NCBI GenBank assembly: GCA_019358835.1
Contig: JAHHIH010000002.1
Span: 124,001 to 188,000, forward strand
From: Tildeniella torsiva UHER 1998/13D
Lineage (GTDB): Bacteria > Cyanobacteriota > Cyanobacteriia > Phormidesmidales > Phormidesmidaceae
Direction of reading: 5' to 3'
DNA length: 64,000 bases
A program made the translations under genes and the position numbers. Every line of letters begins with the position of its first letter. Within the stretch, counting starts at the first letter, position 1. Positions 7,132-60,493 of the stretch are shown here, piece by piece. The notes below the pieces were generated by a model. It ran no database searches, had not been told where the DNA came from, and worked only from the letters and a program-made list of their open reading frames with translations.

Positions 7132-7368
7132 GGGGGCAAATGGCTAGAACGCTAACCCCAGGGTGGCCCAATTCAGGCACCACTGTCATCGGCGTTTGTA
7201 ACCTTGGCTCTAGGCGCTGCCCTGGGCAAGGGTAGGCCGTAAAGCCGTTGATCTTTGCCTGCTGGGGGAGAATTACCCCGCAAAAAGCCGTGCCTAAAAG
7301 TCCTGTGATATTCTCAGGGAACGGTGGCGCGATGCCAGAATTGTCTAGTTTTCAGCCTTTTTAACCCT

Positions 7369-8274
7369 ATGACGTTAACTCGACGGTGGTTTGGCCAGGC
7401 CTGCCTGGGGGTAGCGACGGCGCTGGTGGCCGCGGCCTGCGGCGGTGGCGGTGGCGACAATGTGGTCAGCGTTGGCTCAAAAGACTTTACCGAGCAGCTG
7501 ATTATCGGCGAAATGTATGCCCTGGTGCTCGAAGAAAACGGTCTGACCGTTGAGCGCAAGCTCAACTTAGGGGGCACTCCGGTGGCCCAGGCTGCGATCG
7601 AGAGCGGCGAAATCGACCTTTACCCCGAGTACACCGGCACCGCGCTGCTGACGGTGCTCAAACTGCCGGTCAGCAGCGACCAGCAGGCCGTCTTCGACAC
7701 CGTCAAGCAAGAATACCAAGAGCAATTTAACCTGGTGTGGCTCGACCCCTCGCCGATGAACAACACCCAGGCCCTGGCCATGACCGAGGAACGGGCCGAT
7801 GCCCTGGGTATTCGCACGATCTCTGACTTTGCTGCCCAGGCCAGCAACCTAACACTGATTGGGCCACCCGAGTTTGAGGTGCGCGAAGATGGTCTGCCCG
7901 GTCTGCAAGCGGCCTACGGCAATTTTTCGGTCAAAGAATACAAGGCTGTAGATGCGGGCCTGCGCTATAAGGGGCTGGTGGATGGCGAAGCCGATGTGGC
8001 GGTGGCCTTTGGTACCGACGGCGAAATCAGCGCCTTCAACTTAGTGGTGCTCGAAGATGACGAGGGGCTGTTTCCGCCCTACCAGGTGGCCCCCATTGTT
8101 AGCCAGGCGGCGCTAGATGCTAACCCTGCGATCGCGGAGGCTCTCAACCAGGTTTCGCCCCTGCTCAACGATGAGGTCATGCGCCAGCTCAACTACGAGG
8201 TCAGCGGCAACCAGCGCGAACCGGCAGACGTAGCGCGCGAATTTTTGGTCGATGCGGGCCTGGTTGCAGAATAG
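7369..8274 (+). CDS. Glycine betaine/osmoprotectant ABC transporter substrate-binding lipoprotein
   Basis: A substrate-binding protein of the OpuC/OsmX/ProX class, 301 residues from the ATG at 7369. The signal has MTLTRRWFG, a twin-arginine start, and ends LVAAAC with Cys24 as the lipid-modified residue. The mature start VVSVGSKDFTEQLIIGEMYAL and the later ESGEIDLYPEYTGTALLTVL are diagnostic of quaternary-amine binders. A longer GTG-started frame from 7324 would add 15 residues ahead of the signal and is less likely. The ATPase follows after 32 bases and the permease overlaps that. Transport of compatible solutes such as glycine betaine is the family role; the actual ligand is inferred. Confidence 0.93.
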   Translation: MTLTRRWFGQACLGVATALVAAACGGGGGDNVVSVGSKDFTEQLIIGEMYALVLEENGLTVERKLNLGGTPVAQAAIESGEIDLYPEYTGTALLTVLKLPVSSDQQAVFDTVKQEYQEQFNLVWLDPSPMNNTQALAMTEERADALGIRTISDFAAQASNLTLIGPPEFEVREDGLPGLQAAYGNFSVKEYKAVDAGLRYKGLVDGEADVAVAFGTDGEISAFNLVVLEDDEGLFPPYQVAPIVSQAALDANPAIAEALNQVSPLLNDEVMRQLNYEVSGNQREPADVAREFLVDAGLVAE

Positions 8275-11967: not shown

Positions 11968-13677
11968 CTAGACGGCTACCGGCGATCGCGCCCAAGCCAC
12001 CACATCTACTCCCGTGGTCATAAAGGCCGTAAAGCTGCGACGAGTCACCGCTTGGGAAGTACCTTCAGCAGCAGTAAACTGGGCCGTTACGCGCTGGAGC
12101 ACCCGATTGGTATCAAAATCGCGAATATCTAAGGTGATTGATCCGGCGGGTACCAAGTCGGTCAGGGTGTGATGCGGCACGAATTTGGCCATCAACAGTT
12201 CGGGGTAGTATTTCCATCGACCGCCGACCAAAAGCCCTAAACCTCGCAGGGCACCCTTTTGCTCAGGGGGCAAAAATTTGATGCTTTGAAACTCCAAGAG
12301 CCCGATCGCATCGAACTGCTGACCGCCCGATGGGCTATCAACGAGTCTGACCAACAGCTTCGCCTTATTTTGATAGTTGCGCCAGCGATCGCCGGGTATC
12401 AGAATGTGCCCTAAGAGCGCTTCTGGATTAGCCTTAGCCATCACGGTACGCTGCTGATAGTGATAGGTTTGGCAGAGACTATTATCTACCGTTAGCGAGA
12501 CAAACCCATCGTAGTTAGGCTGTAGTGCTGGATCAGGAGTCCGGCGTAGGATAATGGATCGGCGGGTGGTTCCATTGTCGCCAACAGCATTTATCGTGTG
12601 GCTGTTGGGCTGGCTGAGGATCGTCAAATTTGCGATCGCACAGGCCCGATTTAAGTAACTTCTGAGTTGATCACTCTGCTGATCCAGTGGTTCATTCCAC
12701 TGAAAGACTGTCACCAACTCTTGAATGGGTTTTAGCGTTTTCCCAGCAAAATAATTGACCTGCACTAAAACTTGGCGAATTTCCTCTGGGATCTCTACTC
12801 GGCTGGCAGGACTTTGAGGGTAGGGAAAAATATTGATCAGCCACTGCTCAACTAGGTCAACAAACCCGCTTACTTCGGGCTCAAAGACGATTTTATAAAA
12901 CCAGTCTAGAAACTCTTGAGGAGTCATACGAACTTGTGAATCTAGCGGCGTAGCATAGTGCACTCGGTAAGCATCTAGCAAGATCTGCATGTAACGCAGC
13001 TGAATCAACAAAATAGAAGCGAATTTCTTCTCGATCTTCTGGTAAAAGACAATCAGATCAATATCTTTATTATCAGTAAATCCTTCTGTCTCCTGCATGG
13101 CCTGCTTTTGCCAAATATCAAACAGGCTAGCGTTTTCAGATGCCTTAGGCTGAATCAAGATAGACTTAATGCTCGTCATGCTTTCTTGGTGAATCAACTC
13201 TCCTTGGAGAATATTCTGAGCATGTTGATGGGCAATTTCCTGGGGAGTTTTGAGATCGGTTCTACCGAGAAATGGCCTGTGCATCCTTGGTAGTTCATAT
13301 TCAAAAAAATTATCTTCTAGCGTAACTTTTAGAAGCAGGTTGCTCTCGGAAGTGGTTAGGATGTTAGAATGAAGATATTTCACGCGGCTCTCAATTAGTT
13401 CGCTTAGCGCAAATACCCTTTCTTCTAAAACATCAATTCGTTGGTTTGTCTGAGATAGTTGTCTATCAAGAATATCTAATTTGTCTTCGGGAGGAAAATT
13501 TCCGGTGAATGCAATTGTGAAAATTAAATCTTGCCATTCTTCATAGGTTTTGTTTTCTAGTCGCGTTTTGCTCTGTGCCTTTTCGAGTAGAGCATCTTGA
13601 GCTTTTTCTCTGACTGACTCAGTGGCTTTTTCTGCTAGAGACTCAGCGATTCCGGAGGCAATTTCTTCGTAAAGCAT
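11968..13677 (-). CDS. Unrecognised 569-residue helical protein, first gene of a two-gene unit
   Basis: The N-terminus is strongly helical and amphipathic with coiled-coil character (EEIASGIAESLAEKATESV, EKAQDALLEKAQSK; then a heptad-like stretch at 66-95). The middle (about 130-330) is helical with Phe/Trp-rich segments. The last 200 residues look beta-rich (SIILRRTPDPALQPNYDGF, KAKLLVRLVDSPSGGQ, GSITLDIRDFDTNRVL). There is no signal peptide, no clear membrane helix and no nucleotide-binding motif. Base composition is more AT-rich than the flanking housekeeping genes. It is upstream of the 201-aa gene and probably transcribed with it. A helical N-terminus followed by a beta C-terminus occurs in pore-forming or injected toxins, but nothing here proves that. 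Confidence 0.7.
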   Translation of the reverse strand: MLYEEIASGIAESLAEKATESVREKAQDALLEKAQSKTRLENKTYEEWQDLIFTIAFTGNFPPEDKLDILDRQLSQTNQRIDVLEERVFALSELIESRVKYLHSNILTTSESNLLLKVTLEDNFFEYELPRMHRPFLGRTDLKTPQEIAHQHAQNILQGELIHQESMTSIKSILIQPKASENASLFDIWQKQAMQETEGFTDNKDIDLIVFYQKIEKKFASILLIQLRYMQILLDAYRVHYATPLDSQVRMTPQEFLDWFYKIVFEPEVSGFVDLVEQWLINIFPYPQSPASRVEIPEEIRQVLVQVNYFAGKTLKPIQELVTVFQWNEPLDQQSDQLRSYLNRACAIANLTILSQPNSHTINAVGDNGTTRRSIILRRTPDPALQPNYDGFVSLTVDNSLCQTYHYQQRTVMAKANPEALLGHILIPGDRWRNYQNKAKLLVRLVDSPSGGQQFDAIGLLEFQSIKFLPPEQKGALRGLGLLVGGRWKYYPELLMAKFVPHHTLTDLVPAGSITLDIRDFDTNRVLQRVTAQFTAAEGTSQAVTRRSFTAFMTTGVDVVAWARSPVAV

Positions 13678-58852: not shown

Positions 58853-60493
58853 TTAGGGCCGGAGGCTAGAGTCGGCGATCGCGCTTGCCGTGCAGTCTAA
58901 CTCCCCAGCGCAAACCGGCTCGGGGAACGAAAAATGCTCCAGCACCTGGGGATGAATCTCGCCAAACTCTCCCACAGGTTGACTCTGAATCAACACCGTA
59001 GCCGCCCGCCCTGGAATATAGTATGGGGCCTCGCAAAGCGTCAGTTCATAGCTCAGCCCCAGGGCTTTGAGCATGGTCTGCATGTAGGCCTTAGCGGTGG
59101 TAAACGAGGCGCGGGCATCTAGACTGGCAAAGCCCCAGTGCTGGCTTTCCCTAGGGATATCCGTCGCGTCGAACCGCAGCACTTCCCCGGTTTCGTAGAT
59201 ATTGATTGGTTTGGGCGCGTTAATGTTGCGGGCCAGAATATCGAGCAGCCCCGCTTGCAAGGTTGTACGGGTGGCGCTAAAGGTGCGGCTTTTGGCATTG
59301 CCGGTCTGCACGTAGGGGGCCGCAAACAGATCGAGAATGGCCGGGTCGGTGAGCACAAAACTTTTCACCTCCATCAGCCCCATACGCTGGGCCAGATCGC
59401 CCACCTTAAACATGGCCTGGCGTAGGGCATCGGCCTCCCCCAGATGAAATTTGACCGCCAGGGGTTCGGCCTGGAGCGTGCCAATCCCTACAGCTACGAG
59501 CAGATCGCCCGCCAGGTCAACCTGGCTAAAAATGTCGGTGCGGTAGGTAGGCACATGCACCACATCGGTACCGCTCACCTCTAGATCCATACGGGAGAGC
59601 ACCTGGCCCAGGCCGCTTTTTGGAATGGCGGTGCCCATAATTTCGTTCAGGTACTTGGCCGAAAACTGCACCGGGCGACGGGCTAGGGTGGGAGTGGTCA
59701 GAATGTCTTGGGGGGTGGCAATCTCCACAGTTTGCACCTCAGCCCCGGTGTCTAAAAAGTTGTGGGCCAGAATGTTGGCGGTCTCTAGCACCGTTTGGGC
59801 CAGAATGCCGGTGACATCAATGAACAAATTGCGGGTGCTGGCCTCTACCTCTCCCACCCCCGCTGCGTTGATGATGGGCGGCATCGAGAGCACGGTGCCG
59901 CTGGCGTCGCGCAGCACAAGGGTATAGTCATCACCTGGCAGGGTGTGGCGATAGGTCTTCCCCGCCGGGTGCTCACGCAAAATTTGCCGGGCGGTCATAG
60001 GGTGGGCGCTGTGCAGGGGCACAAAGGTCAACTCATCTAGCGGTTCAGCCCCGTAGGTTAAGTCGCCGCTGATTTTGTCGAGGTCGTAGACGCCGATCGC
60101 AATTTTCTTGCGCTGGCGGCCAAAGGTTTGGGTCACTTTTTCTTGAAACTGTACCAGCACCTCTAGCCCGCCGCCCTGTAGGTTGGCCCCGCGCACCACC
60201 AGGGCAGCAATGTAGGGCCGTAGGGGCAACACTTCGGGCCGCACTGTGACCCGGCGGCCCGAGGGTGCAAGCTGGTCGGGCACGGCACGGCTCAGGCCGT
60301 TGTAGATGTTGATGGCACGGGTAAACCCCTCTGCTGCCAGTAGATCGGGCCGCTCGGCGGTGACTTCGACCTCTAGGGTCTGCTCGTCTAAGGTGGCATC
60401 GAGGCCGTAGTCAAAGGCTTGCTGGGCCAGCTGCTGGGGGGCCGTGGGGGTGAGCCGTCGCAGGTAGGCGAGGGGGAAGGTGACGGTGGGCAT
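58853..60493 (-). CDS. Archaeal/eukaryotic-type phenylalanyl-tRNA synthetase beta subunit-like protein
   Basis: A 546-residue protein that aligns end to end with archaeal PheT (about 550 residues), not with bacterial PheT (about 800). Visible blocks: ERPDLLAAEGFTRAI; VQFQEKVTQTFGRQRKKIAIGVYDLDKI; LSMPPIINAAGVGEVEASTRNLFIDVTG (B3/B4 editing-type domain); YRTDIFSQVDLAGDLLVAVGIG (B5); YYIPGRAATVLIQSQPVGEFGEIHPQVLEHF near the end. The bacterial N-terminal OB fold and C-terminal FDX-ACB domain are absent, as in Archaea. No pheS partner is in the window. In a cyanobacterium this is unexpected. Possible roles: a second PheRS with a distant alpha gene, or trans-editing. The B3/B4 core looks intact. 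Confidence 0.85.
   Translation of the reverse strand: MPTVTFPLAYLRRLTPTAPQQLAQQAFDYGLDATLDEQTLEVEVTAERPDLLAAEGFTRAINIYNGLSRAVPDQLAPSGRRVTVRPEVLPLRPYIAALVVRGANLQGGGLEVLVQFQEKVTQTFGRQRKKIAIGVYDLDKISGDLTYGAEPLDELTFVPLHSAHPMTARQILREHPAGKTYRHTLPGDDYTLVLRDASGTVLSMPPIINAAGVGEVEASTRNLFIDVTGILAQTVLETANILAHNFLDTGAEVQTVEIATPQDILTTPTLARRPVQFSAKYLNEIMGTAIPKSGLGQVLSRMDLEVSGTDVVHVPTYRTDIFSQVDLAGDLLVAVGIGTLQAEPLAVKFHLGEADALRQAMFKVGDLAQRMGLMEVKSFVLTDPAILDLFAAPYVQTGNAKSRTFSATRTTLQAGLLDILARNINAPKPINIYETGEVLRFDATDIPRESQHWGFASLDARASFTTAKAYMQTMLKALGLSYELTLCEAPYYIPGRAATVLIQSQPVGEFGEIHPQVLEHFSFPEPVCAGELDCTASAIADSSLRP

Follow-up and report, generated by a model that had tools for sequence, protein, structure and literature searches.

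The pheT2 gene of the cyanobacterium Tildeniella torsiva UHER 1998/13D very probably encodes the beta subunit of an additional phenylalanyl-tRNA synthetase (PheRS), complete and of archaeal/eukaryal type, here called PheRS2, that is kept beside the bacterial PheRS. Observed for PheRS2 are genes for both subunits, co-occurrence of the two across genomes, conserved phenylalanine-pocket and editing residues, purifying selection, and a tRNA-Phe that shows no difference between carriers and the non-carriers compared. The gene lies in a stretch of 64,000 nucleotides (the window), and its open reading frame was recovered at exactly the position given in an initial annotation, which did not state that the gene is on the minus strand. 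The gene and the parts of its product are as follows.

58853..60493, minus strand: pheT2, archaeal/eukaryal-type PheRS beta subunit of 546 aa, the coordinates including the stop codon (profile, Pfam and PDB matches)
59774..60157, minus strand: B3/B4 editing domain, residues 113-240 (PF03483, 22.7 bits, below the cut-off of 29.3)
59867..59869, minus strand: codon of Asn209, aligned with Asn217 of P. horikoshii and Asn238 of human PheRS (positions counted by hand)
59486..59671, minus strand: B5 domain, residues 275-336 (PF03484, 44.9 bits)
58895..59434, minus strand: catalytic-like module (CLM), residues 354-533, where the alpha subunit is expected to bind (PF17759, 118 bits)

The product, PheT2, was matched by the archaeal-type PheT model TIGR00471 with 339.2 bits (cut-off, 282.65) over model positions 1-547 of 551, whereas the bacterial model TIGR00472 gave 116.9 bits, far under its cut-off of 402.65. 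The initial annotation had claimed an archaeal-type PheT in a cyanobacterium, and the profile comparison that it proposed upholds the claim and does not favor the bacterial family. Archaeal PheT sequences from two phyla scored higher on TIGR00471, mostly 440-650 bits, and thus PheT2 is a divergent member of the archaeal/eukaryal-type family. Pfam placed the CLM and B5 domains above threshold and the B3/4 and B1 domains just below. As annotated, bacterial PheT domains are absent: neither tRNA_bind (EMAP-II-like) nor FDX-ACB was detected in PheT2 by Pfam at E<=1, and both are found in the bacterial PheT of the same genome. The three motifs quoted in the annotation are likewise present in the translation. 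In a PDB sequence search, the best match was the human beta subunit 3l4g_B (2.4e-50), followed by P. horikoshii 2cxi_A (1.7e-45). AlphaFold models of both PheRS2 subunits were used for fold class only; that of PheT2 was of modest confidence (pLDDT 70.6, pTM 0.54), its nearest folds were 8s8b_C, 3l4g_B, 7by6_B and 2cxi_A, and it matched the last of these, an N-terminal fragment, with a TM score of 0.86 by target length and an rmsd of 2.9. Elsewhere in the window, a 569-aa ORF at 11968-13677 (minus strand) had no Pfam match at E<=1e-5, and Rfam at gathering thresholds gave no match in the window.

The gene had been described as lacking a pheS partner, which held for its neighborhood but not for the genome. 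Profile searches of the window's genome (G000) returned two PheS matches, on contigs C34 and C32, and two PheT matches, on C41 and on C28, which carries the window; the four PheRS genes thus sit on four separate contigs. The proteins encoded on C34 and C41 are a full-length bacterial PheS (341 aa) and a full-length bacterial PheT (812 aa). The remaining gene, pheS2, at G000:C32:41773-43290, encodes a 505-aa archaeal/eukaryal-type PheS that scored 411.5 bits against NF003210 (cut-off, 350), with residues 33-503 covered, and 302.4 bits, over the cut-off, against TIGR00468, a PheS equivalog model. The best PDB sequence match of PheS2 was human 3l4g_A (1.5e-83), its AlphaFold model, of modest confidence (mean pLDDT 67.3, pTM 0.41), was aligned with human 3l4g_C over 500 columns, and the protein fits the layout of alpha subunits of approximately 500 aa, with N-terminal DNA-binding-like domains and a class II core. 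The proposed genome search therefore found PheS2, bacterial pheS and bacterial pheT alike. The annotation had also reasoned that an archaeal-type pheS elsewhere, in a genome with no other pheT, would make PheT2 the ordinary enzyme. The former is present, but so is a full bacterial pheT. This makes PheT2 one of the two subunits of a second PheRS, and rules out both the ordinary enzyme and a beta subunit with no partner. Nor is the bacterial PheRS absent from this genome, as in a spirochaete-like replacement. We conclude that the genome of the window encodes what are, by their sequences, two complete PheRSs.

On the strand opposite to pheS2, at a distance of approximately 1 to 6 kb (L005 3498-8585, G000:C32), there are genes for a nitrilase, a radical-SAM-like protein, an acetyltransferase, an AIR-synthase-like protein and a glycosyltransferase, a set which we take to resemble the Nit1C nitrilase cluster.

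PheT2 was found in 31 of the 63 genomes of the window's order, 29 over the cut-off and 2 as long fragments (G001 and G049), and these carriers include all 26 genomes of the window's genus. PheS2 was over the cut-off in 29 of the 63 genomes, every one a PheT2 carrier, such that the two occur together in 29/31 carriers; the exceptions, G029 and G030, are 86% and 84% complete. Within the genus, PheS2 was kept in 24/26 genomes, and neither protein was found in the other 32 genomes of the order. Of the options named in the initial annotation, a second synthetase is the one that the PheS2 gene and its co-occurrence with PheT2 support. In a sample of the phylum, 386 genomes and not exhaustive, the pair was found once, in the window's own genome. 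A scan of a named-genome collection, which relied on exact short peptides and was likewise not exhaustive, gave 29 loci: 27 cyanobacterial, 1 from Aenigmatarchaeota and 1 from Hodarchaeota. The cyanobacterial loci include several Nodosilinea strains as well as Nodosilinea nodulosa PCC 7104, Leptolyngbya PCC 6406 and Phormidium tenue FACHB-1052, the last three not marked as metagenome-assembled genomes (MAGs), and the MAG loci include Oculatellaceae Prado106, Leptolyngbya SIO4C1 and Leptolyngbyaceae CSU_1_4. Contamination was rejected because non-MAG records carry pheT2 and because its flanks are syntenic in Nodosilinea.

The bacterial enzyme accompanies PheRS2. Bacterial-type PheS was matched in 31/31 carriers and bacterial PheT in 29/31, the two without a match being G042 (85% complete) and G001 (95% complete, 910 contigs). 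When 13 genomes were checked separately, bacterial pheT was over the cut-off in 8, and the five misses were two archaea, G001, the non-carrier G012, and Prado106 (G447), which has a 358-aa fragment. Replacement of the bacterial PheRS by PheRS2 was rejected, as the bacterial enzyme is present in carriers; G042 and G001 were not taken as replacements because both have a bacterial pheS match. Two further loci were seen in these scans. The CSU_1_4 MAG has, besides an intact bacterial-type pheT on C111 and its archaeal-type pheT, a second and broken bacterial-type copy (G449:C66:41408-43189) that may be a contaminant or a decaying gene. In the non-carrier G012, a 413-aa ORF (L111, contig C7, approximately 7216-8121) joins a PheS-like core to a terminal segment that matches the C-terminal part of bacterial PheT; such a single-chain PheRS layout resembles the mitochondrial type.

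The two genes are unlinked in the window's genome, but pheS2 and pheT2 are adjacent and on the same strand in Prado106 (L060), SIO4C1 (L061; G059 in the scan of the order) and CSU_1_4 (L062). Archaeal loci from two phyla had PheS within a short flank and on the same strand in 36 of 40 cases, and several Nodosilinea strains share the conserved order dps-pheT2-SPFH-gloA (e.g., L041-L044 and L047). An ancestral pheS2-pheT2 pair that was later split would be the simplest reading. Moreover, in eight carriers, one represented by a 353-aa fragment, the branching order of bacterial PheT approximated that of PheT2, which is consistent with descent of PheT2 inside these cyanobacteria, with losses or transfers to account for its absence from 32 of 63 genomes. 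Other origins for the locus were considered. Plasmid or phage origin was rejected, as matches were weak, all below 60% identity and 20-30% among the matches listed; one comparison gave the best 12 of 53 records, the phage search covered pheT2, and two viral-contig scans, each based on two short peptide patterns, gave no match. In Leptolyngbya SIO4C1, a trm1 gene (PF02005, m2,2G tRNA methyltransferase; L061 3338-4444) lies 38 nt upstream of pheS2, and Trm1 is known mainly from archaea and eukaryotes. The idea of trm1-pheS2 as an archaeal/eukaryal package was dropped, as 59/63 genomes of the order have trm1, and so does the control, Synechococcus elongatus.

The editing site bears on whether PheT2 could act alone. 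Asn217 of P. horikoshii, equivalent to human Asn238, is described as an editing-site residue (PMC3275996). The aligned Asn209 of PheT2 was invariant in 12/12 cyanobacterial sequences, and the position was also invariant in a 5/5 alignment that included two archaea, in line with the earlier view of an intact editing core. An alignment read by eye indicated that the bacterial PheT retains equivalents of E. coli Thr253, Asn254, His265, Gly318 and Glu334, which presumably correspond to the editing residues of T. thermophilus, and hence there is no evident need for rescue by PheT2. The initial annotation had raised the option of a trans-editing factor, a PheT2 that would clear Tyr-tRNA-Phe without an alpha subunit, and both the conserved Asn and the distance of pheT2 from pheS2 in the window's genome would suit it. 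PheS2, however, accompanies PheT2 in 29/31 carriers, which makes a stand-alone factor unlikely, and the two genes adjoin in three lineages. PheT2 also conserves the CLM and B5 domains, and the bacterial PheT would seem to need no help with editing. An orphan or trans-editing beta subunit was rejected once PheS2 was found, and we regard it as the least credible of the readings considered here.

The phenylalanine pocket differs between the two enzymes. Human Asn410, Tyr412 and Phe438 are pocket positions according to PMC3275996, and their Asn/Tyr/Phe equivalents were present in 30/30 cyanobacterial PheS2 sequences. The Asn was missing from 35/35 archaeal sequences, which have Phe (29) or Tyr (6) instead, with Tyr or Phe at 412 and, in 34/35, Phe at 438. 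As the source assigns the pocket Asn to archaeal and eukaryotic enzymes jointly, other archaea may have it. The bacterial PheS of the window's genome instead reads FFPFTEPS at the pocket, and the role of two bacterial pocket Phe residues is described in the same source.

Both subunits are under constraint. By Nei-Gojobori counting, dN/dS was 0.094-0.168 for PheT2 (six of seven pairs with estimable dS), 0.095-0.141 for PheS2 (five pairs) and 0.09-0.131 for bacterial PheT (four pairs); no value was obtained for three pairs with CSU_1_4, which were saturated. Because codon alignment also shows PheT2 to be 57.9-92.3% identical to its counterparts in seven other genomes, a chance ORF is excluded. 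We conclude that the two PheRS2 subunits are under selection of roughly the same strictness as bacterial PheT. This strictness argues against neutral or near-neutral redundancy, by which an old replacement was never completed and either enzyme suffices. Redundancy would fit the patchy presence of PheT2 in 31/63 genomes of the order and the intact look of both PheRSs in the window's genome, but the genus has kept PheT2 in every genome and PheS2 in 24 of 26, and bacterial pheS (31/31) and pheT (29/31) persist in carriers with no clear win by either enzyme; G001 shows no bacterial pheT, but it is a 910-contig assembly. We therefore consider redundancy unlikely.

PheS2 and PheT2 would presumably assemble into the (alpha-beta)2 form typical of PheRS, in which PheS2 would activate phenylalanine and charge the one ordinary tRNA-Phe and PheT2 would supply the scaffold and B3/B4 editing of Tyr-tRNA-Phe. 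The genes were probably acquired as a neighboring pair by an ancestor of some filamentous cyanobacteria, and were probably split in the window's lineage and retained alongside the bacterial PheRS. The most likely reason for having two would be that a differently built phenylalanine pocket sustains the supply of Phe-tRNA when the bacterial enzyme is blocked by an inhibitor, a phenylalanine analogue or stress; the difference in the pocket favors tolerance of something that blocks the bacterial enzyme. A sharper and overlapping version, in which PheRS2 is an isozyme made to resist a natural inhibitor of bacterial PheRS, seems possible to us but is put forward tentatively. For it speak the human-type Asn/Tyr/Phe pocket of PheS2 as against FFPFTEPS and the precedent set by antibiotic producers and resistant bacteria that have duplicated IleRS, TrpRS and SerRS, duplicated synthetases with a resistance role being reviewed in PMC9437257. 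On the other side, no NRPS/PKS domain was found among 14 window ORFs (nine of the 16 ORFs of at least 330 aa overlapping positions 1-53000, plus five in the 53-64 kb part), and presence in 26/26 genomes of the genus would be explained no less well by a housekeeping or stress role. No biosynthetic cluster was found beside pheT2 among the same 14 ORFs or in the PheS2 neighborhood as judged by eye, and nothing fitting a natural PheRS inhibitor with self-resistance appeared in the literature among the matches listed. The large difference between bacterial and human PheRS is the stated reason for treating the former as a drug target (PMC7948948), and a eukaryal-like PheRS already present in free-living bacteria is a warning for such antibacterial work.

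Archaeal-type PheRS is already known in bacteria as a replacement. In Spirochaeta, Borrelia and Treponema, both subunits are reported as probably acquired together, with an alpha subunit of 513-528 aa and a beta subunit of 514-573 aa resembling the 505 and 546 aa here, but there the archaeal form has replaced the bacterial PheRS, whereas in the cyanobacteria it was added and the bacterial PheRS was kept (PMC3191353); this comparison is by description. What differs here is that a whole genus has retained, next to its native enzyme, a second PheRS of another domain's type, with one tRNA between the two. Cyanobacteria with two synthetases for one amino acid have a parallel in the Anabaena ThrRSs T1 and T2, of which the second maintains charging under the stress of low zinc; T1 and T2 can heterodimerize with trans-editing, whereas PheRS2 is of another domain's type (PMC4787780). 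Bacillus cereus likewise has two distinct synthetases for one amino acid, LysRS1 and LysRS2, one type being also archaeal, but those belong to different classes, whereas the two PheRSs are homologous (PMC2916919). Among the matches listed in literature searches on archaeal-type or second PheRS, cyanobacterial synthetase duplication, and Nodosilinea or Leptolyngbya synthetases, no paper described the pair, which may be in print elsewhere. The carriers provide a natural means of asking what a cell gains from two synthetases for one amino acid, whether the reason lies in inhibitor resistance, stress or altered editing.

Among known enzymes close to PheRS2 is human cytosolic PheRS (3l4g), the top PDB sequence match for both subunits, the top fold match for PheS2 and the second, almost equal, for PheT2. 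The two enzymes share the pocket Asn410/Tyr412/Phe438 and the editing Asn238, at an identity of 48-49% for the catalytic domain of alpha and 26% for beta in the fold alignment; PheRS2 differs in its bacterial host and in having adjacent genes in some carriers. Trees were built with two archaeal phyla and a few PDB chains, spirochaetes being absent, after a length filter that removed rows of fewer than 470 (PheT) or 380 (PheS) residues; cyanobacterial rows differ in amino-acid composition in the PheS and PheT trees. A first PheS tree grouped cyanobacteria with eukaryotes at 97 SH-aLRT, with a long-branch warning. A tree of the PheS catalytic domain with four eukaryotic chains, omitting L188_Asg and 22 of the 30 cyanobacterial rows, gave the same group at 100/97 without the warning. 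In topology tests of PheS, in which groups were picked after the tree was seen, placing eukaryotes with the main Asgard group (12 rows) was rejected (p 0.005), as was placing cyanobacteria with the same 12 rows (p 0.007). The PheT tree that the initial annotation had called for was run with archaea and eukaryotes and without spirochaetes; L067, L188, P. horikoshii, the second Plasmodium chain, most cyanobacterial rows and eight further archaeal rows judged close to retained ones were omitted. In it, cyanobacteria fell outside archaea plus eukaryotes on a long branch, and a grouping of cyanobacteria with eukaryotes was not rejected (p 0.45). Because of the PheS tree and tests and the common pocket Asn, the data suggest kinship with the eukaryotic enzyme; the PheT tree counts against it, and PheT2 sequences do not settle the donor. 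If the PheS grouping holds, these sequences could help in rooting eukaryotic PheRS. A bolder reading, which we consider doubtful, is that the pair came from the eukaryotic stem or an unsampled sister lineage and kept the eukaryotic phenylalanine pocket as an inhibitor-proof second PheRS on the same bacterial tRNA-Phe; were it true, one organism would run the phenylalanine systems of two domains on one tRNA.

The window's genome gave a single full-length match to tRNA-Phe, one gene with G34, A35, A36, A73, G30-C40, A31-U39 and U20 (positions assigned by hand). According to PMC9976931, G34, A35, A36 and A73 are common PheRS determinants, G30-C40 and A31-U39 are determinants for human PheRS, and further determinants are G20 for yeast and Aeropyrum and U20 and U59 for E. 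coli. Thirty tRNA-Phe genes, 24 of them from carriers and 6 from non-carriers and leaving out the more divergent genes of other non-carriers (90-97% identical), were identical at the determinant positions and differed at positions 16 and 60 only, each in carriers and non-carriers. A second or altered tRNA-Phe as partner of PheRS2 was thus rejected, there being none in the window's genome and no difference between carriers and non-carriers among the 30 genes. PheRS2 thus comes without a dedicated tRNA, and an active enzyme would have to charge the one ordinary tRNA-Phe, with its U20; as G20 is a determinant in yeast and Aeropyrum, such charging is not assured. The carriers offer a natural setting in which to see how an enzyme of archaeal/eukaryal type handles a bacterial tRNA-Phe that has no G20. 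A PheRS2 that had turned to another amino acid or another acceptor, and away from charging tRNA-Phe for translation, would accord with the single tRNA-Phe gene found in the window's genome and with the long cyanobacterial stem branch (1.7 changes per site for PheT and 0.82 for the PheS catalytic domain). PheS2 nevertheless keeps the phenylalanine-pocket residues as well as the VFRNE and GLGLER regions, which we take to be the motif 2 and motif 3 regions, and is still over the cut-off on PheS equivalog models, and we judge such a change of function very unlikely.

Partial tRNA-Phe copies comprising positions 27-73 only, 94-100% identical, were also observed (G034:C15:72925-72971, G032:C36:8030-8076 and others), in some cases on the contig that also carries the intact gene; their form suggests attachment sites for elements integrating into tRNA-Phe.
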